Shown here one piece after another: positions 21,861 through 36,233 of a DNA stretch of 64,000 bases. The notes beneath the pieces are model-generated. The model was not told the DNA's origin and made no database searches. It worked only from the letters and a program-made list of their open reading frames with translations. The position numbers and the translations under genes were made by a program. This stretch comes from Pirellulaceae bacterium. GTDB lineage: Bacteria > Planctomycetota > Planctomycetia > Pirellulales > Pirellulaceae. Numbering within the stretch: position 1 is the stretch's first letter; each line of letters starts with the position of its first letter. Location of the stretch: the NCBI GenBank assembly GCA_029243025.1, contig JAQWSU010000042.1, positions 62,001-126,000 on the forward strand, in the 5' to 3' direction.

Positions 21861-22607
21861 CTAATTCTTGGCTTCGCGGGATCGTGAAGATCCGTAGGCT
21901 GCTGAGAACGCCACAATACCCAGGAGAGTCCAGATGGCGACTGTGGTCGGTTCTGGCACAACGCCCACGCTGAAGGAAAGATCGCTCACGGCAAATCCTT
22001 CCCAGTCCATTCCGCCTGACTCTTCCGGAATGTAGATCGAAATTCCGGAGATAAGATTCGCTCCGGTGTTTTCACCCACACTGTACTGATGCGTACCGGG
22101 TGAGAGATTGTTCATGCGTTCGACTGTCGATCCGTCGGCCGCGTAAGCTTCTATGACCGTGGGTGTGTTAACATCAAGGTCACCGAGATAAAAACAAACA
22201 TGGCTGACCGGTTTGTCGAATAGGATCGCCAATGGAGTCGTGAAGTATTTCCCTTCGACTGAACCGCCTACGACGATATTGGTCGGCAGCGAGAGATCGA
22301 AGAGTGTTTCGACATTCGGTGCATTGGCTGCGAGTTGTAAGGGCCCCGTAGGGATGTTGTTGTTGAGTGTGTTGTTTGTGCTGCCAACCGTTTGTCCTGC
22401 GAGCACGCTTCCCATACTCACCGTGACGCTCTCGTAGATCGGCGCGCCGGATACCGTGTATTGAGGATTGATAACGCCGATTTTGTCGAAAACGACGTCT
22501 GTATACTGGTCGCAATCGCCCAGTGAACCAGTGGAGACTGCGGACCAAGCTGGAAGGTTAATGAGCAGGAGTGCGAGGATGGCAGCGAGTGGTAAACGAT
22601 ATTTCAT
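21861..22607 (-). CDS. PEP-CTERM sorted exported protein
   Basis: A 248-aa protein with a signal peptide (about residues 1-22) and a C-terminal sorting tail: VVPEPTTVAIW near residue 215, a hydrophobic helix and a basic SSRSRE end. PEP-CTERM tails are recognised by exosortase/archaeosortase-type enzymes that anchor or release proteins at the surface; the sorting enzyme is not in this window. The middle is beta-rich and Gly/Thr/Asn-rich, with two Cys. The ATG at 22607 gives the signal peptide; an in-frame extension to 22733 is unlikely. Confidence 0.85.
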   Translation of the reverse strand: MKYRLPLAAILALLLINLPAWSAVSTGSLGDCDQYTDVVFDKIGVINPQYTVSGAPIYESVTVSMGSVLAGQTVGSTNNTLNNNIPTGPLQLAANAPNVETLFDLSLPTNIVVGGSVEGKYFTTPLAILFDKPVSHVCFYLGDLDVNTPTVIEAYAADGSTVERMNNLSPGTHQYSVGENTGANLISGISIYIPEESGGMDWEGFAVSDLSFSVGVVPEPTTVAIWTLLGIVAFSAAYGSSRSREAKN

Positions 22608-22818
22608 CGAGAGGGTTCCCGACAGGCTTAGGATATTGATCAACGTCGACTTCGAACCCCATAGTAAATCCAAACATTGGGATCGCAATCCTAAAAACGT
22701 GCATTGTTGTACCGTGTACGTATCTTGAATCACTGCTTGTCAACGGTTCGTAGCGTTGTATCAAGATGGTTTGACAGACAAGTGATTTTGATGTCGGTTC
22801 ACAGTCTGAATTCGGTGG

Positions 22819-24042
22819 TTAGTTCAATGTTCGAGCTGCAGCATGGCGTTCCCCCTCACTGCGTTCCCCCTCACTGCGTTCCACCTGTTGTCGAATGGAC
22901 CAGAGTCGATCTCGGCAGGAGACAAACGCATTCATGATCCGCGGATCAAAATGTTTTCCTTTTTCCTGCAACATCATTTTGAGACATGCGTCGGGCATGA
23001 AAGCAGATTTGTAGGGTCGACTGCTACTCAGAGCATCGAATACATCGGCTACCGCGGTGATTCGAGCTTCGATAGGAATGGCTTCGCCTGCGAGTCCTCT
23101 TGGGTATCCCGTTCCATCCCATCGCTCGTGATGACAGAGAGCTATTTGAGCGGCAATTCTCAACAGGGTTGTGTCCGGCGAGTTTCGATTCGCTGCGACA
23201 GTTCGGTAATGACCGAGAGTTCGCCATTTTGAATCCATCGCAGAGTGAATGATATCCCTTCCGAATTCACAATGACGCATCATGTGTAAATACTCCTTCT
23301 CCGTGAGTTCGCTCGGCTTCAGGAGAATGAGATCTGGAATTTGGATTTTACCCACATCGTGCAGGAGGGCGGCTTGTTCGAGCAGTTGAACTTGATTCGG
23401 ATCGAAGCCGAGTTGTTCACTGATTGCTCCCACATATAGACCAACTCGGAGTAGGTGGAGATGCGATTCGGCGTTTGAATGTTCTCCTGCTCGGGCAAGA
23501 CAAAATAATAGATCCTGTCGGGATGCCATTAAATGTTCGATTTGATCCTGGGTAATTGAATCGGATGGCGTGGAAGCCAAGGTCCTGCTCCATCGCAAGC
23601 GAGGGTTCGAGATCGCCTGGACTCGAGCGATGAGGTCGATGTCATGAAACGGGCGGTCGATGAAGTGATTGAATCCCAGTCGAAGAGCTTGTTGTTTCGA
23701 GTCCGTGTCGAGCGAGTCGAAGACCAAGAGCACGGGAAGTTCATGCGGGCAGATGTCATCAAGGAAAGCAAGTTCTTCGGAAGTTTCTTTCGCTTGTCTC
23801 ACATTCAAGATAAGTAAATCAGGGGTTTCGTCCTCGGACGGTATTTCAATAGCGGATGGCTCGCTCAACTTTCGCAGCGTTGCAACCGATCTTACAGCGC
23901 CGAGGATTTGGAGGATTCGGTCCTCTTCCCCGTGGTCAAAACCGAGCAATATCAGGGACTTCAACGGAAGTTCGGTGGTCGAACTTTCGCGTGATTCCTC
24001 GGCTTGATAGTCGACCGATTCTTTTACGGACTTAGAAGGCAT
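22819..24042 (-). CDS. HD-GYP domain protein with degenerate receiver domain
   Basis: A 407-aa cytoplasmic protein. Residues about 28-145 resemble a response-regulator receiver, but the phosphoacceptor Asp position is Asn (LLILNV, near residue 78) and the conserved Lys is Arg (FIDRPF), so it is probably not phosphorylated normally. Residues about 190-385 form an HD-GYP phosphodiesterase domain with LLHDVGKIQIPD (near 227) and HHERWDGTGYP (near 304) intact. HD-GYP enzymes degrade cyclic di-GMP. The C-terminus contains a duplicated SEGER unit from a 15-bp DNA repeat. It stands alone. Confidence 0.87.
   Translation of the reverse strand: MPSKSVKESVDYQAEESRESSTTELPLKSLILLGFDHGEEDRILQILGAVRSVATLRKLSEPSAIEIPSEDETPDLLILNVRQAKETSEELAFLDDICPHELPVLLVFDSLDTDSKQQALRLGFNHFIDRPFHDIDLIARVQAISNPRLRWSRTLASTPSDSITQDQIEHLMASRQDLLFCLARAGEHSNAESHLHLLRVGLYVGAISEQLGFDPNQVQLLEQAALLHDVGKIQIPDLILLKPSELTEKEYLHMMRHCEFGRDIIHSAMDSKWRTLGHYRTVAANRNSPDTTLLRIAAQIALCHHERWDGTGYPRGLAGEAIPIEARITAVADVFDALSSSRPYKSAFMPDACLKMMLQEKGKHFDPRIMNAFVSCRDRLWSIRQQVERSEGERSEGERHAAARTLN
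22846..22890. repeat. 15-bp tandem repeats in the HD-GYP C-terminus
   Basis: GCGTTCCCCCTCACT is present exactly at 22846-22860 and 22861-22875, with a degenerate third copy at 22876-22890. In the minus-strand gene this encodes SEGER repeats (ERSEGERSEGER) just before the stop. The length is a multiple of three, so copy-number changes keep the frame. Confidence 0.85.
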
Positions 24043-24559
24043 CTCGAAACTCGAGAGTGATCAGGGAAATGGGGAATGGCTGTATGAAGCTGAGGCTCGT
24101 TTGCCCTCTTTCGATGGTATTCATTTTTTCGGGACAAACTTTAGGCCGGAAGCAATAATTTCGGACGGATACGACAGACGTGTCGATTGTGCGGCCTCCG
24201 GGAGTGGGTTGCCGTTTGGTTGTCAATTAAGTTCAGGATCCATGATCTGAGTGGGATGCTATTTCAAACGACAGAGTGTACGGGCAAACTGCCGATAATC
24301 CTTGGGCCCGGATGACGACTTGCCTCTCGTTTTATCTCAGGATAAGGCGGAACAATACTTGTCAGGTTAAGGCTAGTTTACTTTGCTTTTCAGCCGAGGC
24401 GGAACTGTGACGGCTTCTTCGATGCAGTCGTTACGATCCGCACCGTCCTTGAGGTCAGTCGCTGTCAAAAGGCTACATGACCTAAGTTTTTTAGTGCTTT
24501 GTCGTTGTTTCCAACGCGTGAATCGTTGATCTCTGTCGCTGTTGTCAGGTGCCGGCCTT
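24043..24559. other. Intergenic region upstream of the export-like cluster
   Basis: A 517-bp divergent gap between the HD-GYP gene and the first adaptor gene. No coding pattern, repeat or convincing riboswitch is visible. Promoters for both directions should lie here. Confidence 0.4.
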
Positions 24560-25396
24560 ATGTTGATTCGCTTTGTACTTCCCTCTTTGCTTCTCGTTGT
24601 TGCTTTTTCCGTTGAAGGGAAAGGCCAGTCCGAGGCGGATGCCTTTACCGAACCCTTTCAGGAACTCGAATTGGCTGTGAGCGATGCAGGCGTGCTTACG
24701 GAGGTGAATGTGTGCGCCGGTGAGCCCGTCAAGGCGGGGCAAGTTCTAGCGAAATTGGATAGCAGTGTATTGGCCGCATCCTTGGAGATCTCGCAAGCAA
24801 AATCCAGGTTCGTTGGGGCTCTTGATGCGGCGGTGGCTGAACGAGATCTGCGTGAAAAACAGTTTCGCCAGCTTGACAATCTTTACGGTCGAGGTCATGC
24901 GACCGAACGCGAGTTGGAACGAGCCCAGACCGATTATCAGATCTCCAAAGCACGGGTGGCGATGGCTCGAGAGGAATTGTTTTTACATCGATTAGAGTGC
25001 AAACGTATCGAAGCTCAGATTGAACGTCGAAGAATCCGCAGTCCAATTAATGGCATTGTCAGCGACGTTGCCAAGCAGGTGGGTGAATTCTTTTCCCCGA
25101 CGGACCCGCACCTAATGACGATCGTTCAATTGGGGAAGTTGCGTGCGAAGTTTTCGCTGACACCAGGGGAGTCGGCGGGCATCAAGGTCGGCGATCAGAT
25201 TTCCCTGCGGGTGACCCAACCGACACGAGAGGTAATCGCCAGAGTGGAGGCGGTCTATCCTGTGGTTGATGCAAAAAGCGGAACTCGAATTATCTCAATG
25301 GTGATAGATAACTCGCAGCGAAAAGTTAGAAGTGGCGATCGGTGTTTCATGAAAATTAATCGTAACGGTGGGAAAACAAGGTACACGGGGAATTAA
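24560..25396 (+). CDS. HlyD-type periplasmic adaptor subunit (small)
   Basis: The 278-aa protein has a signal peptide (about residues 1-22). A split biotinyl-lipoyl-like domain comes in two halves: residues about 38-68 (GVLTEVNVCAGEPVKAGQVL) and the second half after residue 155 (RRIRSPINGIV). An alpha-helical hairpin rich in Glu, Arg and Gln (about 70-150) lies between, and a short beta-barrel follows. This is the fold of membrane-fusion proteins that link an inner-membrane pump to a TolC-type channel. It is the first of three adaptor-like genes on the same strand, 57 bp before the next. A TTG 18 nt upstream (24542) is an alternative start. Confidence 0.82.
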   Translation: MLIRFVLPSLLLVVAFSVEGKGQSEADAFTEPFQELELAVSDAGVLTEVNVCAGEPVKAGQVLAKLDSSVLAASLEISQAKSRFVGALDAAVAERDLREKQFRQLDNLYGRGHATERELERAQTDYQISKARVAMAREELFLHRLECKRIEAQIERRRIRSPINGIVSDVAKQVGEFFSPTDPHLMTIVQLGKLRAKFSLTPGESAGIKVGDQISLRVTQPTREVIARVEAVYPVVDAKSGTRIISMVIDNSQRKVRSGDRCFMKINRNGGKTRYTGN

Positions 25397-25453
25397 GCAC
25401 TGGCGGTGCACAACTCAGTGTCGACAAGTGGATTGAGGGATGAAGGAGCGCGG

Positions 25454-27313
25454 ATGAGCCAAAGCTCGGTTAAAACCATTCCGAAGCGAAGGGTTGCCTC
25501 AGCGGGTGAGTCTTCCTTTGACGTGCGCCAGTTGGGACTTCACCTTGAGGAAGTGCTGGGCTCAGCCACATCCGAGGTAGAGGCGATTGAATCGTTGCTG
25601 CAGTTAGCCTTGCAACTCATGCGCGCGAACATGGTGCTCTACTTCGACGCGGATTCAACGGGCCAGCTGTCCAGTTATCCAACTGGCCAATTTCCAGCAG
25701 TTGTTGCCGAGCCTCTGCTGAATCAACTCTACTCGCTTGCCGTGATGACACAGGAAACGGCAACGGTGCAAATTGCTCGCGTTGAACAGGCAGGAGAAGT
25801 GATCGCGGTAGCGGTGCCGGTCTTCCGTTCAGATCAGATCAAGGAAGTCATGTTGGTGGTTATCGACAGTAGTGGCGACCTGCAACAACGACTCACGGAG
25901 CTTGTGCAAGTGGCACAATTGGTGGCGGCCTTTGCCGGGCAATGGCGGGGTCGTTTTGTCGCTTTGAAGTCAGGCCATGAACAGAGTCAATGGAGTCGCT
26001 TCAGTCGGGCAATGGTTGCTGCTGGGGAGGTTGAACGATTTGACTCGGCCGTCAGCAAGCTGGCCGATGGTGTGCAGGAATTCTATCAAGCCTCATGCGT
26101 TGCTGTCGGATTGCGGCGGTCAGGTGGACTTGTGAAGCTCCTGGCGATCTCGAATGGATTGCAGTTTGACAGGTCCTCCGAGCTGACCAAACGATTGGAA
26201 GCGGTCATGGCAGAGGTCCTGGTGATGAACGGTGATCGAACTGTGGCAGGTGAGGCGGTGGGGCGTAAAACCCATGCGTTAGAAGAATTGGAAAAGAGTC
26301 TGAATGTTCGCTCAATCTATCGCGCCACGCTCAGAAATGGTCAAGGCGATCTGGTCGGGGCTTTTGTCGTCGCGCGTGACGAGCCGATTGCCGGGGAGGA
26401 TCAGCAAGGTGCAGAACTTATCGAGCGATTATTGGGGCACGAAGTGGATTTGTTGAATCGATCCAGGCCTGGCGTTTTCGCCGGGGCCAGAAATCGCCTT
26501 CATCGCCTCTCGAGTGCCTCGAAACGGGGCATCATCACACTTGGCATTCTGGCCATGTTGTTGTTGTTTGTCATGCCCGTTCCCCACCGAATTATTGGCC
26601 GTTCTGAGATTCAACCTGTCGCTCGGCGATTCGTTGCAGCTCCGTACGAAGGTCGGTTAGAGGCCGCATTCGTTGAGCCAGGGGACGTGGTTGAAAAAGG
26701 CCAAACCGTTGCACGAATGGATGCTCGTGAAATTCGTCTTGAACGGGCCGCGGTGGAGGCGGATCTCGTTCGTTCGATGAAGCAGCGCGACACATCGATG
26801 GCGAATGGTGATGCAGTAGGAACTCAAATGGCCGAGTTTGAAGGGGACCGTTTACGGCTTAAGCTCCAATTGCTGCAAGAACGGATGGATCACTTGGAGG
26901 TCAAGAGTCCTACGGATGGGATGGTAATCAGTGGAGATCCGAGGAAATTGGAAGGCTCGCGTCTGAGGATCGGCCAGACGCTGGTGGAGGTTAGTCCCCT
27001 GGGGAAGAATGTTTTGGAAGTCGCCATCCCCGATGAAGACATCTCTCATGTCAAAGTAGGACAAGAAGTCGCTTTTCGATTGGAAGCTCTGCCCTATTCC
27101 GACTTTGGAGGGGTGATCGCCAGTCTTCAGCCACGATCGGTGCAACAGGACTCTGCGAACGTGTTTTTGGCAGAGGTTACGATCCATGGCGAGACTGAAA
27201 TGCTCCGACCCGGGATGCGTGGTCGAGCCAAAATTATGGCGGCCAACCGATCACTGGCCTGGGTGCTTTTTCACCGAGCCTGGGAAAACGTCTTTTTCAG
27301 AATGGGGTGGTGA
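25454..27313 (+). CDS. GAF-like/HlyD-type fusion adaptor protein
   Basis: The 619-aa protein starts at an ATG with GGAG 5 nt upstream. Residues about 25-340 look like two GAF-type sensory domains, with AIESLLQLALQLMRANMVLYF and a second unit around 190-340 including LVGAFVVARDEP. A transmembrane helix (about 358-378) follows, then a periplasmic HlyD-like part with lipoyl halves (EGRLEAAFVEPGDVVEKGQTV and LEVKSPTDGMVIS) and a beta-barrel. Cytoplasmic GAF domains joined to a periplasmic adaptor could couple export to a signal. The gene overlaps the next one by a GTGA start/stop, suggesting translational coupling. Confidence 0.8.
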   Translation: MSQSSVKTIPKRRVASAGESSFDVRQLGLHLEEVLGSATSEVEAIESLLQLALQLMRANMVLYFDADSTGQLSSYPTGQFPAVVAEPLLNQLYSLAVMTQETATVQIARVEQAGEVIAVAVPVFRSDQIKEVMLVVIDSSGDLQQRLTELVQVAQLVAAFAGQWRGRFVALKSGHEQSQWSRFSRAMVAAGEVERFDSAVSKLADGVQEFYQASCVAVGLRRSGGLVKLLAISNGLQFDRSSELTKRLEAVMAEVLVMNGDRTVAGEAVGRKTHALEELEKSLNVRSIYRATLRNGQGDLVGAFVVARDEPIAGEDQQGAELIERLLGHEVDLLNRSRPGVFAGARNRLHRLSSASKRGIITLGILAMLLLFVMPVPHRIIGRSEIQPVARRFVAAPYEGRLEAAFVEPGDVVEKGQTVARMDAREIRLERAAVEADLVRSMKQRDTSMANGDAVGTQMAEFEGDRLRLKLQLLQERMDHLEVKSPTDGMVISGDPRKLEGSRLRIGQTLVEVSPLGKNVLEVAIPDEDISHVKVGQEVAFRLEALPYSDFGGVIASLQPRSVQQDSANVFLAEVTIHGETEMLRPGMRGRAKIMAANRSLAWVLFHRAWENVFFRMGW

Positions 27314-29463
27314 ATTTGTCCGCCAAACGCAAATCTCTGGTCGATGATCCAACACTGGTGCGTGTGCGGCTTCGTGAAGATGTTCGCTGCACGTTACAGC
27401 ATTCTAATAACGAACCTTACTATCAACTCGAAGATCAACTCAAGGCAAAGTTTTATCGACTCGGCACTCGAGAATGGGAATTGGTTAAACTGCTCGATGG
27501 CAAACAGTTGCTCCGGGAAGTGATCGCTCAGCAAGCATCTTTGTCAGCCAGAGAAGCGGTCATGCTTGTCAGATGGTTGACGCAAAATCAACTAGCTTCC
27601 ATCGAAGCGAACGTTGTACATCCCATTTATGAGCTTCCGAAAGCGAGCCTTGACCGTTTTCAGGGGAGCTTGAACCCCTTGTTTCTCCGTATCCCTTTGT
27701 TTGATCCGGATCACTTGTTAAAACGATGTTTGCCGTGGTGTGCTTGGACGATTAGCCCGATTGCTTTTGTGGTGTGGCTGGGATTGTGTTTGCTGGCTCT
27801 AGGGCAGGTGCTAACACATTGGGACCGGTTTCGTTTGTCACTCACCACGATTTTGACCCCAGCGAATTGGTTTTGGTTGTTGGTCGTTTGGGTGATGCTG
27901 AAGGCCGTTCATGAGTTCTATCATGGGCTGATCTGCAAAAAGTATGGAGGACAAGTTCCTCGTTGTGGATTGGTACTGATTCTGTTTTCGCCGATTGCGT
28001 TCGTGGACGTTACTTCCTCTTGGCGATTTCGTTCGAAGTGGCAACGGATTTTTACGGCCGCGGGAGGAATGTACATTGAATTCTTTGTTGCCAGTATCGC
28101 GGTCTTAATTTGGGCACGAACAGAACAGCCGTTGATTGAGCAGCTCTGCCGAAACATTATTGTGATGGCGAGTGTTTCTACGCTGCTTTGTAACGCAAAT
28201 TTTTTGATGCGATTTGATGGTTATTACATTGTCGCGGACTTGTTGGAAATCCAGAATCTGTATTCAAAAGGGCAGCAATACCTAAGATACTTCGGACGTC
28301 GATATTTGCTGGGTGTCGATATCGAAAACCCATTAGCACGAAGCTCTCATGCAATATTGATTCGTGCCTATGCTTTTGCGGCTCTGTTATGGCGCTGGCT
28401 TTTTTGTGTGGGAATTGTGCTCGCTGCTTCGGTGATGTTTCGAGGCGCTGGAATCGCACTCGCGGTTTCGGCAGCAACTTTGTGGTTGGTGATTCCCGCC
28501 GTGAAGCTTGGACGCTATCTGATTCGTGGTACCTCGACTGAGCAGCCGAATCTTGTTCGATTTGCGTTGATTTTGGGCGGCTTGATGCTGCTGGTTGGAT
28601 CGTCGCTCGCTTTACCTTGGCCGGGAGGCGTGTCGGCACCCGGCATTGTTGACTACGATCCCTTAACGATGCATCGGGTTGACAGTCCGGGCTTTGTGCG
28701 GCAGGTTCATGTCGCCCCGGGTGAACTGGTGGAGCCGGGGCAGCTGCTGGTGACGCTCGAGAATTCCGAATGGGCTTTGCAACTTGCAGAGATCGAAATT
28801 GAAATTGAGGAGTCTCTGATCCGTAGCCGTGTGTTACGCGGGGATGCTGATGTGGTGAATTATCAGGTTGAAGGACGCAAGCTGATCAGTTTATACGAGC
28901 AACGAGACGAATTAGAACAGCGGGTTCGTAAGTTGGAAATAGTCGCTACTACCCGCGGAAATGTAATCGGACACGATTTGCAATCGCTCGTGGGTCAATA
29001 CATGCATACGGGCGCACCGTTGATTGCCATCGGAGATGAAAAACAGAAAGAAGTTCGACTGTCAGTCTCCCAAAAGAACGTTACTTTTTTTCTGAAGCAG
29101 TTGGACCGGCATCCGGTCATTCGAATCAAGGGCCGCTCCACCGCCATCACCAACGGAGTGTTGACTCGCGTGGATCCGCGAGCCACGCGTCGCCTTCCCA
29201 ATCCGGGCTTGGCGGCACCGAATGGTGGACCGTTGGCAGTTGTGATGCATCACTCCGCAGAGCAAACAACGGAAGACGAACCGTTTCAGCTCGTGGAACC
29301 CCATTTTTTGGTGAGAGTGCAGATTCCAACTTCCGAAGCAGAATCCTTGCACGCCGGCCAGTTAGCTCAAACGCGGATCGAAACAGTGGGCGACACCGTT
29401 GGAAGCCATTTCTATGGTGTCGTGAGTCGATGGATCCGGACTCGACTGGAAGACAAAGGCTAG
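27310..29463 (+). CDS. PqqD-like/M50 metalloprotease/HlyD-like membrane protein
   Basis: A 717-aa protein. The GTG at 27310 overlaps the upstream TGA (GTGA), so it is the likely start. Residues about 10-100 resemble PqqD-like peptide-binding domains (FYRLGTREWELVKLLDG). The membrane part has several helices (about 145-430) and the M50 metalloprotease motif HEFYH at 201-205, together with a later NANFLMRFDGYYIV stretch supplying the Asp ligand. The C-terminal third is a HlyD/lipoyl-like domain (GFVRQVHVAPGELVEPGQLL) after a last helix. This is the YydH-like architecture found with peptide export or processing. It probably processes or transports a peptide at the inner membrane with the two adaptors. 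Confidence 0.82.
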   Translation: MNLSAKRKSLVDDPTLVRVRLREDVRCTLQHSNNEPYYQLEDQLKAKFYRLGTREWELVKLLDGKQLLREVIAQQASLSAREAVMLVRWLTQNQLASIEANVVHPIYELPKASLDRFQGSLNPLFLRIPLFDPDHLLKRCLPWCAWTISPIAFVVWLGLCLLALGQVLTHWDRFRLSLTTILTPANWFWLLVVWVMLKAVHEFYHGLICKKYGGQVPRCGLVLILFSPIAFVDVTSSWRFRSKWQRIFTAAGGMYIEFFVASIAVLIWARTEQPLIEQLCRNIIVMASVSTLLCNANFLMRFDGYYIVADLLEIQNLYSKGQQYLRYFGRRYLLGVDIENPLARSSHAILIRAYAFAALLWRWLFCVGIVLAASVMFRGAGIALAVSAATLWLVIPAVKLGRYLIRGTSTEQPNLVRFALILGGLMLLVGSSLALPWPGGVSAPGIVDYDPLTMHRVDSPGFVRQVHVAPGELVEPGQLLVTLENSEWALQLAEIEIEIEESLIRSRVLRGDADVVNYQVEGRKLISLYEQRDELEQRVRKLEIVATTRGNVIGHDLQSLVGQYMHTGAPLIAIGDEKQKEVRLSVSQKNVTFFLKQLDRHPVIRIKGRSTAITNGVLTRVDPRATRRLPNPGLAAPNGGPLAVVMHHSAEQTTEDEPFQLVEPHFLVRVQIPTSEAESLHAGQLAQTRIETVGDTVGSHFYGVVSRWIRTRLEDKG

Positions 29464-30409
29464 CGAGCAACGGTTGCGCTACCTGAAATCATAGGCAGCG
29501 CGCGGCCGATCGCTGACCATGAAATTACTCCCAACACTTTGCTTCCTCAGTCGGAGATTGCCCGAAGCCATTCCGATGGCCTGGTTGGCGACGCGACGGG
29601 GGATTGTTTGTCTCGACATTTGACACACACACTCGGATTAAGACTGAATTCCTGGTGCGAAGTTGCGCAAAAAAGTTTTCTGGATCGGGGAAACGGGTCG
29701 CAATGCCAAAAGGTTGACAGAGCTGATTCATGCGGTCGATTGTTTGATCGATTCTCTAAATCTACCGGGCAAATTCCCTGCACCATCCACGGGCGCGAGG
29801 GGATCTAATTGCTAGGCTTTTATCGTGTTTCAAACGCCGGATGGTGGACCGAATGGCCGTTGAAAAGAGTTTGGACGAGTGTCGACGGTGGTATTTGCGG
29901 ACGGCATTCCTCCCCATGATTATGATTTCGACCGGAGATGTTGAGGGATGTCGTGAAACGACAAGCGGTTCCGGAAAAGGAAGGCTCTACCACGGTCAAT
30001 GGTGACCCGCTGGTCCTGTTTTCCGATGTTTATGCTGAATCTCACACGCAACGCCGGGTTGAAAGCGATGGGTAGGTTTGCGTTTTGTGGGCGCAGAGTC
30101 CTTACTGAAAACGTTTGAAGTTGAATTCACCCGGAATCGGGCGGAATAGATTTGGGAAAGCAGCGGAGGTCGATTCGCACTTGCCAAAGGCTGGATTGGT
30201 GAGATACAAGTTGGTCGAACTGGTGTGCATCATGTTTGTGCCGAGGCTTCTCCTGTTTGGGAGGGCTTGAACGAGTTGCCGGCACCTGGTTGAGCCGCCG
30301 CTTGTTTGGTAAACGGACGGTGATCGCCGATTTTGGTTTCGAGCTTTGCCGCGCCCGGCGTGGCGGCTCGCAATAGAAAAACAACGCGTATCGTCCGGGG
30401 GTGTTTGAG
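29464..30409. other. Long region without a recognised gene
   Basis: A 946-bp stretch between the M50 gene and the DUF2817 gene. Reading frames on both strands are short and lack ribosome sites, domains or consistent codon use. A 34-codon frame from the ATG at 29519 and about 54 codons around 29840-30004 are the only plus-strand candidates, and neither looks like a known protein. A small peptide substrate for the adjacent M50/HlyD proteins could be hidden here, but I cannot point to one. Confidence 0.4.
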
Positions 30410-31498
30410 ATGATGGTTGGTCAGCTTGACGCGTTTTCACCCGACTATGCAACAGCACGGCGGAAGTTTCGCAGCGCGGTCGCTCGGCCCGGTTGGATCT
30501 TCGAGGAGCATTTACTGCAGGAAGAGGGACCTGATGGTGAAACGCTTTCGGTTGATGTGGCTCGCTATTGTGTGAAAGGCTCGCGGCAAACGCTCGTGAT
30601 CTCGTCCGGACTACATGGTGTGGAAGGCTTTTTGGGATCTGCGGTTCAGCTTGAAGCGTTGCGTGTTTGGGCAACTAAGGCAAGACCGCGAGTGAATGTG
30701 GTGGTGCTTCATGCTCTGAATCCGTATGGATTTGCTTGGCTGAGACGATTCGACAAGCAGAATGTGGATCTCAATCGAAATTTCCTGTTGGAAGGTGAGT
30801 CCTATCAAGGTTCGCCCGCCTCCTATTCGACCCTGGATGGGTTGCTGAATCCACAATGCGCGCCAAATCGTCTTGATATGTTCCGAGTCCAGGCACTGCT
30901 GTTGATCGTCCGGCATGGTATGCCTGCTTTACGTCAGGCGGTTGCCGGTGGGCAGTATGACTTTCCCCGGGGACTGTTTTTTGGAGGGCATAGAGCTGCT
31001 TCGATTCAGCAATGGTTAGGCGATATCCTAGATGAATGGTTGGTGGACAACGACAACGTTATGCATTTAGATTTCCACACGGGATTGGGACCCCATGGCC
31101 AATACAAGTTGCTACTGGATCCACCTTTGCGACCTTTAGATCAAAAGCGAATGTTGGAGTGGTTTGGTAGCGGGACATTTGAAGAGAGTGATTCGAATGG
31201 TATCGCCTACAAAACCCGAGGGGGCATCGGACCCTGGTGTGTTTCGCGGGAAATCGTGCCCAACTACCTTTATGTCTGTGCTGAATTTGGGACTTACGGG
31301 CCGATGGCAGTCATCGAGGGTTTGCGCGCCGAGAATCAGGCTTATCACTTTCTAGACAGCAATCAGCCCGCATACGGGCGGGCCCAGCGACGATTGAAGG
31401 AACTGTTTTGCCCGGAAGCATTAGCTTGGCGACGGACGGTGTTAAGGCAGAGCCTGGCAATCGTTGCTCAAGCGGAGACTGGCCTGTCTGACTTGTAA
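30410..31498 (+). CDS. DUF2817/M14-like zinc carboxypeptidase family enzyme
   Basis: A 362-aa protein starting at one of two adjacent ATGs (30410 or 30413) after a GGGGG-rich ribosome site. SSGLHGVEGFLGSAVQLEAL near residue 66 and NVDLNRNFL near residue 119 match the zinc-binding HxxE and NxxxN regions of the M14-like DUF2817 family. The second His ligand is likely in MHLDFHTGLG near residue 220 and the catalytic Glu in the YVCAEFGTYG segment near 287. The family removes terminal residues or deacylates small substrates. There is no signal peptide, so it is cytoplasmic. It converges on the TolC-like gene. Confidence 0.82.
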   Translation: MMVGQLDAFSPDYATARRKFRSAVARPGWIFEEHLLQEEGPDGETLSVDVARYCVKGSRQTLVISSGLHGVEGFLGSAVQLEALRVWATKARPRVNVVVLHALNPYGFAWLRRFDKQNVDLNRNFLLEGESYQGSPASYSTLDGLLNPQCAPNRLDMFRVQALLLIVRHGMPALRQAVAGGQYDFPRGLFFGGHRAASIQQWLGDILDEWLVDNDNVMHLDFHTGLGPHGQYKLLLDPPLRPLDQKRMLEWFGSGTFEESDSNGIAYKTRGGIGPWCVSREIVPNYLYVCAEFGTYGPMAVIEGLRAENQAYHFLDSNQPAYGRAQRRLKELFCPEALAWRRTVLRQSLAIVAQAETGLSDL

Positions 31499-31524
31499 GA
31501 CGTGAGGCTTGTCGCCGGAACGGG

Positions 31525-33426
31525 TTAACGGCGTTGCTTGTGCGGTGGAGTCCGCGATTGGACGTGTGTCGAAACGGTTGAGCCCCGATCTGAGGACGAT
31601 GCGTTCGAGGGGTGTTGCCTGTTTTTATCGGAAACTTCCGATGAGATCGGCAGGTTGCGGCGGAGTTCAACCTGGGGTAAGCAGTTTTTGATATAACGCT
31701 CCATCGTGATCTGTTCGGTTTGTAGCATGGTACCCAACGCTCGTTGATAGGCCATGTGGGAAGTGTTGTAATCTAATTGGGAATTGAGGAATGCGAATTC
31801 GGCCAGGTTGAGCCGTTCCTGGGCGTCAAGGAGATCCTCGAGTAGGACGCTGGCTGATAGATCATTACCTGGCAGGAGCCTCCAACGGTCGTAGAGATAC
31901 CGGACTTCGGCCTCTTCACCGGAAACGGCTTGAAAGTTTGCCAGCATTTCCCGATAAGATGTGCTGACTTCGCGCACAGCCGCTTCGACTTCGAAACGCA
32001 ATGCTTCCATGGTGACCTGCAGTTGTGACTCTAGCTGGCGAAGCTCTAGTCGTCGTCGATCATAACGGGCTTTTGCGCGACGGTTGTTGATCGGCATTTC
32101 GTATTGCAGTCCCACGCTATAACTGGGTTCGCCGCGGCTGTACTGGTCGAGAATTGAGCCTCCAATGTTGGCATTGCCTCGTAATCCACTCACATAAGTG
32201 TCCACGACGAGATTGAGCAGCGGCAGTAATTCGTTGCGTGACATATTCAAACGAACACCCGCGGCTCGTATCTGTTTAATCGACGCGGCCAACTCGGGGC
32301 GATTGTGGAAAGCGATTTCAACCGACTGTTGAACATCCATGGGAGCGGAGTATTTCAGCGGTAGCGACTCGGGCAGTAATTCATTATCGACGCTGTTGCC
32401 TAGAGCCGGATCGTTGACCAGCGCGCGAATACGACTTTCGGAGTTTCGTATTGCCATTTCGGCGCGATAGACCTCGGCACGTCGGCTGGCAACGGCCGCA
32501 CGTGCACGCATGATTTGGCTCTGCAGAGCATCAATGGTTCGCCGCCGTTCCATCTCGGTGAGAATCTCACGGGCCGCATTGCGGAGACGTTGTTTTTGGA
32601 GCAAATTTGCTCGTTGCAAATACAGTTCCCAATAAGCACGAGTGATTTTGAGGAGATGCGATTGTAGTTGACTCGAGAAATCGTCCTGTGCGGTCGCAGT
32701 GTCGATCTGGGCCAACACGGTAAGACTCGTGTTGTAAACGCGACCAGCTCCCTTGAGAAGCGGTTGGGTGTAGCTGATCGTGAGCCGTGAATTCCCCTGA
32801 TTTGGCGGTGTAAAAAAGATGGAGTTGTTGTCACGGTAACCGATCTCTTGTGCGATATCGAATCGGCCGCCCAATGTGTTTTTTCTCCTTAAACCGGCGC
32901 TGGTCGCAAAGTCGTGTTCACGGAACCGCAGGGGGCCCCCGGTCTCAAGTTGGTTTCCCACCGGATTACTCGTGTCAACGAATTGAGATTCGACAAAAGC
33001 CGACCAGTCAAATTCGGCATTGGCTTCGATAATTGCCGTTTCCCGAATCAAGGGTGCCTCTTGGATTACGCGGATTTGAGCGGAGTATGCAAGAGCACTT
33101 ACCAACAATTCATCTAGGCTGATAGGAATTGGCGTTGTACCTTGGACAAACGGTTCGCGAACGGCGGTATCCCACCAGTTGGTCAGCCTCTGCTCGACTT
33201 TCGGCCTGGGCAATCGAGCAGGACTCGGATGCTGATCGGGCAGAGATGGAGAAGGCAGCCGCACCATTTCGTTCCCTGGTGGATTCGCTGCTTGTCGGGT
33301 TGGGACCTGACTCCACAATGGACCGCTGTTTGCATTGATCAAGCAGACAGACATCCAGGCGAGCGTGCATCGGATCAGCACTATCCGGCGACCTGCCATA
33401 ATCTGCGGGCTTCGTTGTCGTCGCAT
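31525..33426 (-). CDS. TolC-family outer-membrane efflux protein
   Basis: A protein of about 633 aa with a basic/hydrophobic leader (about residues 10-40 from the ATG at 33426; the ATG at 33399 is an alternative). The mature protein is long and helical, with two outer-membrane-efflux repeats. Repeated features are helices with AYWELYLQRANLLQKQRLR near residue 260, FHNRPELAASIKQIRAAGV near 345 and QLDYNTSHMAYQRALGTMLQ near 555, together with Tyr-rich strand segments such as RLTISYTQPLLKGAG. TolC-type proteins form the outer-membrane channel for HlyD-adaptor systems. Three adaptors lie 2-9 kb away, so it is the likely channel for that cluster although convergently transcribed. Confidence 0.85.
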   Translation of the reverse strand: MRRQRSPQIMAGRRIVLIRCTLAWMSVCLINANSGPLWSQVPTRQAANPPGNEMVRLPSPSLPDQHPSPARLPRPKVEQRLTNWWDTAVREPFVQGTTPIPISLDELLVSALAYSAQIRVIQEAPLIRETAIIEANAEFDWSAFVESQFVDTSNPVGNQLETGGPLRFREHDFATSAGLRRKNTLGGRFDIAQEIGYRDNNSIFFTPPNQGNSRLTISYTQPLLKGAGRVYNTSLTVLAQIDTATAQDDFSSQLQSHLLKITRAYWELYLQRANLLQKQRLRNAAREILTEMERRRTIDALQSQIMRARAAVASRRAEVYRAEMAIRNSESRIRALVNDPALGNSVDNELLPESLPLKYSAPMDVQQSVEIAFHNRPELAASIKQIRAAGVRLNMSRNELLPLLNLVVDTYVSGLRGNANIGGSILDQYSRGEPSYSVGLQYEMPINNRRAKARYDRRRLELRQLESQLQVTMEALRFEVEAAVREVSTSYREMLANFQAVSGEEAEVRYLYDRWRLLPGNDLSASVLLEDLLDAQERLNLAEFAFLNSQLDYNTSHMAYQRALGTMLQTEQITMERYIKNCLPQVELRRNLPISSEVSDKNRQHPSNASSSDRGSTVSTHVQSRTPPHKQRR

Positions 33427-33776
33427 AGGAGTACGTCCGAGATCGCAAGGGCGGCCGACGCCGCAAATAATCTCCAAACCTCAAGGTTTGACGCGGTAGG
33501 CTGATCCCATCGTAGGTGGATTCGACCAAATTTGCGACGCGGGAACAGCTTCGACTCTCGAGTCGATGTAATCGTTAGTGATCCTGGAGTTGGCGAAACT
33601 CGACAACTTTGCCCAATCGATAATCTTCGCCGTTTGTCGAAAACAGGACGGGGGCACCGGAACCAACCAGAGCAATGAATCGGGAGTGGCGCATGGAGCC
33701 AGATGGGCCCGCGATCCGAGAGGAATGGCAAAGCCAGTTACGGTCTGAGTGGATCGAATATGGCCGGCCGGTGGCT
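33427..33776. other. Intergenic region, no gene seen
   Basis: A 350-bp gap between the TolC-like gene start and the end of the HerA-like gene, both on the minus strand. Its frames overlap on both strands without a coherent protein. It should contain the TolC promoter. Confidence 0.35.
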
Positions 33777-36233
33777 TCAGTTTCCTGGCTTGGGGGTTGG
33801 AATCCAAACGATTGCGAAGAGTCGGATGTCGATATCTGACTTCCGGGGTTTTAACTGGATTGTTTCAAGTTCCAGCTTGAGCGGATCCATCTGTTCACGT
33901 ATTTCAGCAGCTTCCGCGCGGAAATCTGCTTCTAGATCCGCGAGTCGATTGCGATACTCCTCGGCCTTTCTTTCTGCACGACGGACATCTTCAGCCTGTT
34001 TGGAAGCGCGACCGAATCCTTGGGCCGTGCGAGATGCGCGTCCGATGTTGGTGGAACTGAATTTCTTTTTGCCAAGCATCGCGCTGAGTAGATTGCTCCC
34101 CAGTGAGATCATGGATCGCATATTGGCCTCTTTGGCTTGACTCGCTTCGCGTTCGATCGCCTCTTCGGCACGGTTGATTCGGTCTTCTGCCGTTTGTAAT
34201 CGGGATGCGTATTTGTGCCGCAACTTATCGACCCGTCCGTCACGAGCTTCTCGCGCGAGATCGGTTAGTCGGATACGGAAGTCGCGTTCGGATTCGCCTG
34301 GTCGGGAATATTCTTTGAGAGTTGCACATTTGAAAAGGTCATAGCGCTGCTGCCGATACAAGAAATCGCGAAGCGACTTTTTGCATTCGGAAAACGTACT
34401 CGATTTGCTGAGTAAATTGGGCAAGGGTTCAAAAGTGCAAGGCGAAAGCGGTGCTTGTCGTAGGTCCGTGCGATTCATTTGCAGAACGCTCGCGGTATCC
34501 CAATCCGGATGAACTGCATTCACGGGCACTTGAAGTGACCACTGATACTCGTCGTCGGCGGCAAGGCCTCGACGCGTATCGACAAAGTGCACTTTTATGA
34601 AGGCCAAAATTTGAGGTGAATAATGAAAAGTGTCATGGTTCGGTTCGTCGGACGGAAGAAAAAACGATTCGACATTGCGCGGGACGACGGGAGCGTGCGG
34701 ACTCGCGGCACTCCTGCCGGATGCATGCTCGATTGGATTCGTAGGGCGATCTGGTGGCGTTTTGTCAGTTGTTCCGGCGGAAGAAGGCTCGACCTTTTCA
34801 GCGGTCTCTTGTTTGGATTTCATCAGACTGCGAATCTGATTGCGAGTCATGGGGCCGGCTAAGTACGAAAGTGCCCACCGTGTCTGGAACACTTCGGGCG
34901 CACTGTCATGGACGTTGTGCATCAAGAATACGCGTTTGCCGACATTGGAGAGGATTTCCGCAGCGGTTGAGCGATCAAACGCTTCCCCAGATTCGGTCGT
35001 CGCGCCCTCAAGTCCGTCGAGCACGCGGTCTTTGTCTCGTTCCGTTTGTAAGCGGCCTAGGAACCAAGTGCCGGCATTCGACAGCCCTTTGTAATCAAGA
35101 TCGACCGGGTTTTGTGTGGAAAGGACGACGCCAAGTCCGAATGCTCGGGCCTGCTTTAGCAGGGTGAGAAGCGGTTTCTTAGAGGGAGGTTCTGCGACGG
35201 GTGGCATGTAGCCAAAGATTTCATCGATGTAGAGCAAAGCGCGTAAGCTATTGGTGCCTGAACGACTGCGCATCCAGCCTAATGTCTCGTTGAGCAACAG
35301 TGACACAAAGAACATTCGCTCTGACTCGGACAAGTGCGCGATCGAAAAAATCGAATGTCTCGGTTTGCCGGATGGCGAGTAGAGCAGTTGGTCGACATTG
35401 AGGGGTTGACCCTTCAGCCAGGCCGCGAAGCTAGGCGCAGCCAATAGATTGTTCAATGCCATGGCTAATTCAAACCGATCTTTCGGTGGAAAGAACGATT
35501 CTAAGTCCATGACTCCGACTTGCTGAAAGGGTGGTTGCTGAACTTGTTGAATCAGTTGGCCTAAATCCAAGTCCTTGCCACTGCGCCATGACTCATCGAG
35601 GAGCCGAGTGATCAGAATGTGTTCGCGAGAACGGAGCGGGTCGGCATTAATGCCTAATAAACCTAGCAGGCTGTTGGCCGTCGTCGTGACGCGGTCCCGC
35701 AGCAAATCCGCATTTTCAACTACAGAGGGAGGAGGCGCCGCGAAAGACGAAAGGATGGAAATTGGCAGGCCGGCGTCGCTACCTGGTGTGTAAACATTGA
35801 ATTCGACCGCATCGCCCAGGCGACTTATCCGTTCGGGCGTCTGATCCCAATCAGCCAATCCCTCGCGCCAACGCGAAGCCTGCATTGCTGCGTAATCTTC
35901 GACGGTCATTTGCTCGCGTTGAGCGTCGTCCGCATGAATCCATGGTAAAAAATCTTCTGGGCGTAATTCCGGGAAATTGAGAAGTAAATTCGAAAGGTCT
36001 CCTTTGGGATCAATGATCAATGCCGGAATGCGATCGATCGCAGCTTCTTCTAACAGGCCAACTCCCAGACCTGTTTTTCCACTGCCTGTCATCCCCACAA
36101 TTACGGCATGCGTTACCAAATCTTTGGAATCATACAATACTAGCTCTTCTTCACGTCGGTTCGAATCCAGGTTGAATGATTTGCCCAAATAGAAAGAACC
36201 GAGGGATTCGTATGAGGGCTGATCTGCAGACAC
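33777..36233 (-). CDS. HerA-like ATP-binding protein (DUF87/DUF853-type)
   Basis: An 818-aa cytoplasmic ATPase of the HerA/FtsK superfamily. Walker A is GMTGSGKTG near residue 47, followed by ALIIDPKGDLSNLL; Walker B is LLYIDEIFGYM near residue 335, and VVLSTQNPVDLD fits the sensor region. The central part (about 445-600) is Ser/Pro/Thr-rich, then a helical C-terminal half contains a long Glu/Arg/Ala coiled coil (about 680-790). HerA-like proteins are DNA-translocating ATPases, but no NurA nuclease is next to it, so its role here is open. The C-terminal coiled coil is unusual for HerA itself. Confidence 0.85.
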   Translation of the reverse strand: MSADQPSYESLGSFYLGKSFNLDSNRREEELVLYDSKDLVTHAVIVGMTGSGKTGLGVGLLEEAAIDRIPALIIDPKGDLSNLLLNFPELRPEDFLPWIHADDAQREQMTVEDYAAMQASRWREGLADWDQTPERISRLGDAVEFNVYTPGSDAGLPISILSSFAAPPPSVVENADLLRDRVTTTANSLLGLLGINADPLRSREHILITRLLDESWRSGKDLDLGQLIQQVQQPPFQQVGVMDLESFFPPKDRFELAMALNNLLAAPSFAAWLKGQPLNVDQLLYSPSGKPRHSIFSIAHLSESERMFFVSLLLNETLGWMRSRSGTNSLRALLYIDEIFGYMPPVAEPPSKKPLLTLLKQARAFGLGVVLSTQNPVDLDYKGLSNAGTWFLGRLQTERDKDRVLDGLEGATTESGEAFDRSTAAEILSNVGKRVFLMHNVHDSAPEVFQTRWALSYLAGPMTRNQIRSLMKSKQETAEKVEPSSAGTTDKTPPDRPTNPIEHASGRSAASPHAPVVPRNVESFFLPSDEPNHDTFHYSPQILAFIKVHFVDTRRGLAADDEYQWSLQVPVNAVHPDWDTASVLQMNRTDLRQAPLSPCTFEPLPNLLSKSSTFSECKKSLRDFLYRQQRYDLFKCATLKEYSRPGESERDFRIRLTDLAREARDGRVDKLRHKYASRLQTAEDRINRAEEAIEREASQAKEANMRSMISLGSNLLSAMLGKKKFSSTNIGRASRTAQGFGRASKQAEDVRRAERKAEEYRNRLADLEADFRAEAAEIREQMDPLKLELETIQLKPRKSDIDIRLFAIVWIPTPKPGN

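Follow-up and report, generated by a model that had tools for sequence, protein, structure and literature searches.

The window analysed here is a stretch of 64,000 nucleotides on contig C42 (JAQWSU010000042.1) of a Pirellulaceae genome. It holds three consecutive plus-strand genes for adaptor proteins of the HlyD type, one fused to GAF domains and one to an M50 metalloprotease, which are followed by a convergent gene for a TolC-family channel. An earlier note, made from the letters alone, had read this cluster as a peptide-processing and secretion machine devoid of an ATP-binding cassette (ABC) transporter. Open reading frame (ORF) calling and Pfam and NCBIfam searches found every gene that it named, and the start it gave for the small adaptor is an in-frame ATG within a longer ORF. 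The main features are:

24542-25396, plus strand: small HlyD/RND-type (resistance-nodulation-division) periplasmic adaptor, 284 amino acids (aa), in-frame ATG at 24560; HlyD_3 1.1e-15, RND_mfp 2.1e-35
25406-27313, plus strand: tandem GAF / transmembrane / HlyD fusion (GAF-HlyD), 635 aa; HlyD_D23 4.8e-14
27307-29463, plus strand: PqqD-like N-terminal region / M50 site-2-type metalloprotease / HlyD fusion (M50-HlyD), 718 aa, alternative GTG start at 27310
27910-27924, plus strand: M50 active-site motif HEFYH, residues 202-206 of M50-HlyD, from an alignment of 60 sequences
31525-33477, minus strand: TolC-family outer-membrane channel, convergent, 650 aa; OEP 3.3e-22

All three adaptors carry HlyD-type domains and the TolC-like protein an OEP domain, and the GAF-HlyD and M50-HlyD genes overlap as GTGA, as had been described. 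Among the seven proteins scanned between 21861 and 33477 no ABC, major facilitator superfamily (MFS) or radical S-adenosylmethionine (radical-SAM) protein was found with Pfam and NCBIfam, in agreement with the earlier reading.

The M50-HlyD protein is a predicted M50 protease, as judged from its motif and family matches. Its own Peptidase_M50 match (1.2e-4, 22.0 bits) lies below the Pfam cut-off of 27.2; at E <= 0.01 the family is matched by 56 of the 60 aligned members, the window protein included. All 60 sequences share H202, E203 and D304 (of FDGYY), and at least 90% of them have H206; the protein thus has the HExxH and distal aspartate characteristic of peptidase family M50. Its HlyD half matches HlyD_3 (1.5e-6), and in the predicted structure (AlphaFold, pLDDT 92.1) residues 439-694 superpose on MacA 9qgy (VIA-align, Z 17.7, root-mean-square deviation (rmsd) 2.8 over 218). 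The M50 and HlyD parts of the proposed fusion therefore stand, whereas the PqqD-like part is weak: PF05402 matched one of the 60 members, a fold search of the N-terminus gave a match list filled by the HlyD half, and a single-sequence search of the PDB with residues 1-108 gave one match, at E 0.51.

For the GAF-HlyD protein, Pfam gave no GAF match in the window copy itself; PF01590 was matched by 10 of 52 aligned members. In the predicted structure (pLDDT 88.8), residues 36-185 superpose on the single GAF domain 4g3v (Z 15.8, rmsd 2.5 over 138) and residues 190-356 on 4mcw (Z 15.1, rmsd 3.0 over 151); the tandem GAF domains of PDE5A, 3lfv, are matched as well (Z 18.0, rmsd 9.3 over 303). Residues 369-626 superpose on MacA 9qgy (Z 17.1, rmsd 4.9 over 245). 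What had been called a GAF-like region thus models as two tandem GAF folds.

The M50 half is also where the peptide reading meets its evidence. That reading, in which a peptide of the ribosomally synthesized and post-translationally modified (RiPP), epipeptide or daptide type would be matured by an M50 leader peptidase and exported, is disfavoured and in our view very improbable. In its favour, residues 29-396 cover almost all of the daptide M50 model NF041824, N-terminal region included, the YydH/LiaK model NF058609 is matched weakly, the M50 core is shared, and PF05402 matched one of 60 members; the two model scores, 148.4 bits against a cut-off of 300 and 22.9 against 225, fall short. These proteases differ from M50-HlyD in the HlyD fusion and in its giant candidate cargo, and no RiPP precursor or radical-SAM gene was seen here. 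The gap at 29464-30400, proposed as the place for a conserved short precursor ORF, gave no such ORF when compared with that of one same-genus locus, L041: the best blastn E value was 0.68 and the best translated ORF reached 0.02 over 17 residues, in a comparison where the neighbouring DUF2817 gene gave 1.4e-7. A RiPP precursor in the gap is thus not supported by this single genus pair, and the proteins that recur beside the trio are giants rather than peptides.

The trio as a conserved unit

In a set of 40 genomes, made up of the window's own (G000) and 39 relatives, M50-HlyD is present in 39, with up to eight copies per genome; the only one without it is G022. A tree of 39 copies divides into clade A (20 rows, support 98/97), which includes the window copy, clade B (16 rows) and a small clade C. 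The second copy of the window's genome, at locus L058, falls in clade B.

A scan of named genomes gave 561 M50-HlyD relatives, of which the best 80 loci were kept; three of these repeat contigs fetched earlier, two are near-identical, and many end early at contig ends. GAF-HlyD accompanies M50-HlyD at 74 of them, a small HlyD at 54, TolC at 32, a short SecA at 18 and ABC motifs at 2. Removal of four repeats or near-duplicates (n=76) leaves 70, 51, 31, 18 and 2, respectively, and the 28 loci with at least 21.5 kb, none of them repeats, give 26, 21, 13, 8 and 2. Twenty control loci, taken at round coordinates in four genomes, gave one small HlyD and none of the others. Homologues are thus not restricted to loci with ordinary ABC transporters and mostly keep GAF-HlyD beside them, and the claim that the cluster is a unit holds. 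By their record labels, the carriers among the best 80 are mostly Planctomycetota, and also Verrucomicrobiota, Gammaproteobacteria and Desulfobulbaceae. The small HlyD, GAF-HlyD and M50-HlyD trio is a unit conserved at the level of sequence in several phyla, which bears out the idea of a predicted trans-envelope export unit that includes an M50 protease and GAF domains but no ABC transporter. One metagenome-assembled genome labelled Saprospiraceae (OFTM40, Bacteroidota; L162) has GAF-HlyD, M50-HlyD and TolC on one contig, through horizontal transfer or mis-binning.

The machine itself is not new. Kamneva, Poudel and Ward described in 2015 (PMC4452313) secondary SecA_DEAD proteins with SecA_SW absent or fragmentary, encoded together with M50, GAF, HlyD and sometimes OEP proteins. 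Those loci are without ABC transporters; the authors proposed that SecA is their ATPase and that M50 may form a pore, some SecA copies were reported to be encoded away from the locus, and its broader role was called "completely unknown". By its sequences, the window trio with TolC is a member of this locus type: M50-HlyD, GAF-HlyD and a further HlyD are encoded together, three HlyD-domain proteins in all with no ABC transporter, and the genome has a second SecA_DEAD protein without SecA_SW. Homology to loci that co-encode SecA runs through clade A, in a comparison made among the loci collected here, with the sequences of PMC4452313 outside it. The window differs in that its SecA gene, which usually but not necessarily lies at the same locus, is on contig C30.

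A short SecA as candidate motor

Among the families neighbouring M50-HlyD, cluster c2 is a SecA paralogue, and the order TolC - short SecA - HlyD - GAF-HlyD - M50-HlyD recurs at the loci. The frames are short: all but two of 42 copies measure 628-728 aa. Two copies that were scanned have the SecA_DEAD, PP_bind and P-loop domains, with no wing/scaffold match in Pfam, and the short SecA of the window's genome (L058:3114-5123, contig C30) aligns to residues 16-611 only of B. subtilis SecA, an end point that we take, from the SecA structure, to precede the wing and the two-helix finger. A SecA fragment was also seen at a contig end in G033.

The link between short SecA and the trio is visible in distance and in co-variation. 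No more than 10 kb separates a short SecA from M50-HlyD in 24 of 55 cases, against none of 38 for the housekeeping SecA; these counts come from 94 rows, the contig-edge SecA G010:C10 being left out, and on the M50 side two rows with partial HlyD matches were dropped. Paired SecA and M50 distances are correlated (Mantel r 0.83, n=42, one of 43 loci being left out for a SecA frame above 1000 aa), with none of 2000 permutations as high, a correlation to which the shared ancestry of the hosts contributes. The SecAs of clade B form one group (SH-aLRT 99) in a SecA tree built without a housekeeping outgroup.

The window's genome has only two SecA matches, on C51 and C30. Its sole short SecA is the one on C30, beside the clade B trio, so the window copy would borrow that short SecA, use the housekeeping SecA or work otherwise. 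By its M50-HlyD it shares clade A with loci that hold a short SecA of their own, such as L043, L048, L051, L052 and L056. Taken together, the gene order, distances and co-variation suggest that the energy source of the cluster is probably the shortened SecA paralogue. The earlier note had left energy source and cargo without a name; there is now a strong candidate for the first and a candidate class, the giant LEPR-XLL/DUF4347 proteins described below, for the second.

The same data bear on another route, which we find rather unlikely: housekeeping SecA with SecYEG, or SecYEG served by the short SecA, would move the giants across the inner membrane, leaving to M50, HlyD, GAF and TolC only processing and outer-membrane transfer or surface retention. 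In its favour, a single SecY, without a dedicated second copy, is encoded in each of the eight genomes examined, the short SecA keeps the preprotein-binding domain SecA_PP_bind, and most loci show no SecA of their own, 18 of 80 having one. The wing/finger region that the short SecA lacks is used at SecYEG, however, and neither this loss nor the co-variation of short SecA with M50 is expected from such a route, nor is the lack of hydrophobic N-terminal segments in the candidate cargo (see below). The accessory SecA2 systems of Gram-positive bacteria are alike in having a second SecA paralogue that serves its own set of cargo, as would be the case here; they differ from the present truncated SecA, which lacks the wing/finger, has HlyD and TolC partners and goes with no second SecY.

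Giant surface proteins as candidate cargo

Giants with an LE-x-R motif near the N-terminus are encoded next to several clade A loci, and the two that were scanned contain DUF4347 and cadherin-type repeats. In the 40 genomes, 10 of 27 DUF4347 frames lie within 10 kb of M50-HlyD (27 from 30 rows, three second or fragmentary domains of counted frames being left out); in three closed genomes the figure is 4 of 9, against 0.17 expected. Around the full-flank loci, candidate cargo was found at 13 of 28 against 1 of 20 controls (p 0.003), and DUF4347 at 9 of 28 against none of 20 (p 0.006).

Co-occurrence was then measured in a draw of 294 genomes of the phylum, which shares G000 and G018 with the set of 40. 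DUF4347 is present in 12 of the 294, and M50-HlyD in 9 of these 12, against 65 in the whole draw (Fisher p 9.8e-5, with no correction for kinship of the genomes). Above 90 bits, a cut chosen post hoc, all nine genomes with DUF4347 have M50-HlyD (p 8e-7). In six of the nine genomes the DUF4347 gene is 1.4-7.4 kb from the M50-HlyD gene (G276, G044, G076, G065, G133 twice, G164). The scan scored three candidates per genome, which makes absences in it weak.

The LEPR-XLL model behaved similarly. At E <= 0.05 it matched all of 12 hand-picked named genomes and, among 14 named controls from unrelated organisms, one. For six of the 12 a giant at the locus was known beforehand (L195, L202, L210, L193, L184, L149), so the weight of the test lies with the remaining six (L206, L156, L167, L208, L205, L170), where no giant had been seen beside M50-HlyD and all of which matched at E <= 1.4e-4. 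The single positive control genome was that of Deinobacterium chartae.

At two loci a giant sits inside the gene run itself. In a Desulfobulbaceae genome (L242) a 3703-residue frame starting MKKKIKRHLLLEQLEDRIFLSASP is followed by TolC, HlyD, GAF-HlyD and M50-HlyD, and in a Verrucomicrobiales genome (L248) a giant of 3226 residues lies between M50 and TolC. Such runs speak against an improbable alternative, a GAF-controlled complex for small-molecule efflux or envelope signalling near which giants would merely mark surface-protein islands. The adaptors do resemble MacA/RND adaptors, GAF domains often bind small ligands, LE-type frames occur also away from clade A, and GGDEF genes are found in 4 of 20 clade A loci. 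However, no pump of the RND or MFS type was found among the scanned window proteins, and ABC motifs occurred in 2 of 80 loci, where RND and MFS were not sought. The co-occurrence of DUF4347 with M50-HlyD across the phylum is likewise not what an efflux complex would predict.

Both ends of the candidate cargo carry recognisable features. A hydrophobic N-terminal segment (19-residue window, Kyte-Doolittle >= 1.6, before or around the LE motif) was found in none of 35 proteins with DUF4347 or the C-terminal motif, so that their leader is unlike a Sec signal peptide. At the other end, many giants of Pirellulales have a hydrophobic stretch that goes with the pattern GY-x-x-W ... P-x-W-x-x-[FM]DPLP[IV], and this DPLP-type motif occurs in 13 of the 40 genomes. 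In the 294 it was found in two only, too few to count alone: G000, whose sequence had gone into that profile, and G276, where the C-terminal end of the giant lies about 16 kb from the M50 gene and DUF4347 7.4 kb from it. The giants of L242, L211, L244 and L248 (Proteobacteria, Verrucomicrobiota) have no DPLP end; by eye, they finish approximately as W-[ND]-x-x-x-x-Y-[EQ]-F-x-[AS]. This aromatic end is a possible second C-terminal signature.

In the window's genome, a C-terminal motif profile built from four other genomes matches one gene, at C42:185859-186497 (L091:9860-10498, minus strand, E 2.8e-7). It lies on the window's own contig, outside the window and about 94 kb from the trio. Its 212-aa product has LESRTLYSASP near its start and GY..DPLPIL at its end, with no Pfam domain at E <= 0.001, and is a candidate for a minimal, two-ended cargo. 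No DUF4347 was found in G000; LEPR-XLL gave 11 matches there, in frames of 1351-2231 residues, none adjacent to the window trio. The cargo of the window copy would be the 212-aa protein or these LEPR-XLL proteins.

We consider it fairly probable that the window trio and TolC form an ABC-free, SecA-linked, type I-like conduit that exports giant LEPR-XLL/DUF4347 surface proteins, the candidate cargo. The parts, their conservation, the SecA link and the cargo linkage in related loci are read directly from sequence; the functional steps we infer. Three MacA/HlyD-type adaptors would dock onto TolC. The shortened SecA, its gene in the sister locus on another contig, would give an ATP-driven push with an ATPase core that is kept when the wing/two-helix-finger region is lost. 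The M50 membrane protein would be the inner-membrane part and would process the cargo, its PqqD-like region may read the cargo leader, and the GAF domains would regulate export. The cargo would be giant surface proteins or exoproteins with an N-terminal LE-x-R-x-[LM]-x-[SD]-A motif of the LEPR-XLL type and no hydrophobic signal peptide, often with DUF4347 and then cadherin or Ig repeats after the leader. In many Pirellulales it would end in a hydrophobic segment with DPLP[IV], where M50 could cut and so release it.

More tentatively, and as a possibility that we rate well below the conduit itself, LEPR-XLL may be the address label of a one-step machine. The PqqD-like/M50-HlyD protein would read, and perhaps cut, the leader; the wing- and finger-less SecA would push the adhesin-like giants through M50, HlyD and TolC, bypassing SecYEG; and their C-terminal segment would be cut within the membrane to set them free. 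If so, this would be a one-step route distinct from the type I, type II and SecA2 pathways, common to Planctomycetota, Verrucomicrobiota and some Proteobacteria. Type I secretion (HlyB-HlyD-TolC) shares with the window the HlyD-type adaptor and TolC, and with related loci the large repeat-rich cargo. It differs in its dedicated ABC exporter, absent from the seven window proteins scanned and hinted at by motifs in 2 of 80 homologous loci, and in having neither three adaptors nor their fusions to a protease and to GAF domains. Classical type I secretion signals are C-terminal, whereas the candidate signal here is N-terminal.

Several observations weigh against export of giants by a SecA-driven conduit. 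On the side of the machine, a short SecA is missing from the matches in three of the 40 genomes, G022, G033 and G034, the last two of which keep M50-HlyD; no SecA was found on the window's contig C42; a short SecA and TolC accompany only 18 and 32 of the 80 loci, many of which are cut by contig ends; and the PqqD match that might mark a leader reader is weak. On the side of the cargo, LEPR-XLL reaches E <= 0.01 in 26 of the 40 genomes although M50-HlyD is in 39. Three of the 12 phylum genomes with DUF4347, all weak matches of 48-61 bits, have no M50-HlyD match, and G022 has a weak DUF4347 (4.2e-7) with neither M50-HlyD nor short SecA. LE-type frames lie near 5 of 16 clade B loci and 1 of 20 controls, too weak a difference to keep a cargo claim for clade B, which was dropped. 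Next to the window trio no giant was seen, and its own link to the giants would run by homology and through the 212-aa protein, at a distance of about 94 kb on contig C42; that protein is not matched by the LEPR-XLL model at E <= 1, its N-terminal motif having been called by eye and by pattern.

As far as searched, the pairing of this machine with LEPR-XLL/DUF4347 giants is new, and it is supported by linkage and co-occurrence, for the window copy indirectly. The Fig 3 legend of PMC4452313 mentions proteins over 1,000 residues; its main text contains neither DUF4347, cadherin nor LEPR, and its sections on the locus name no cargo. LEPR-XLL (NF012209) and DUF4347 (PF14252), the families of the candidate cargo class, are known as annotations, and a literature search on these two and on SecA, HlyD, M50 and TolC in planctomycetes, with most subscription papers and all preprints outside it, found no report of a link to a secretion machine. 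M50, HlyD and TolC are absent from the main text of a polymorphic-toxin paper (PMC3482391), and HlyD and SecA have no occurrence in the available text of two giant-protein papers (PMC12288469, PMC11573180). A machine whose role has stood as "completely unknown" in print since 2015 is thus paired with giants whose N-terminal motif has no named partner in the literature found, and the pairing makes both testable in culturable planctomycetes. If true, it would explain ABC-free export of proteins that range from 1,000 residues to more than 5,000, and add a case of a SecA motor outside SecYEG.

Neighbouring genes and possible regulation

Four further genes lie near the trio and TolC:

30401-31498, plus strand: DUF2817 (M14-like) protein; PF10994 6.9e-82
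22819-24042, minus strand: receiver-like/HD-GYP protein; HD_5 3.6e-31
21861-22733, minus strand: 290-aa protein, no Pfam or NCBIfam match, C-terminal end VPEPTTVAIWTLLGIVAFSAAYGSSRSREAKN
33777-36233, minus strand: 818-aa protein adjoining the TolC gene, contains GMTGSGKTGLG

The fourth gene of the run does encode a DUF2817 protein, as noted before. Its proposed membership of the cluster fails: its cluster is represented at 2 of 41 loci, each from the genus of the window, and it was rejected as a part of the unit. The HD-GYP protein has no homologue in the same-genus locus L041 and is judged not to belong either. GGDEF motifs are present near four of the 20 clade A loci (L044, L045, L046, L060), and 7 of the 80 named-genome loci have GGDEF or HD-GYP motifs nearby (L152, L185, L209; L144, L149, L150, L154), against none of 20 controls, L152 being a repeat of L046. 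Lying beside some clade A loci and not as a rule, GGDEF, HD-GYP and their joint family (c4) were rejected as parts of the unit; cyclic di-GMP may regulate some copies of the trio.

The 290-aa protein has a homologue beside the trio of L041, and its C-terminus resembles what we take to be a PEP-CTERM sorting signal. The 818-aa protein, presumably a HerA-like ATPase by its look, also has homologous frames in L041.

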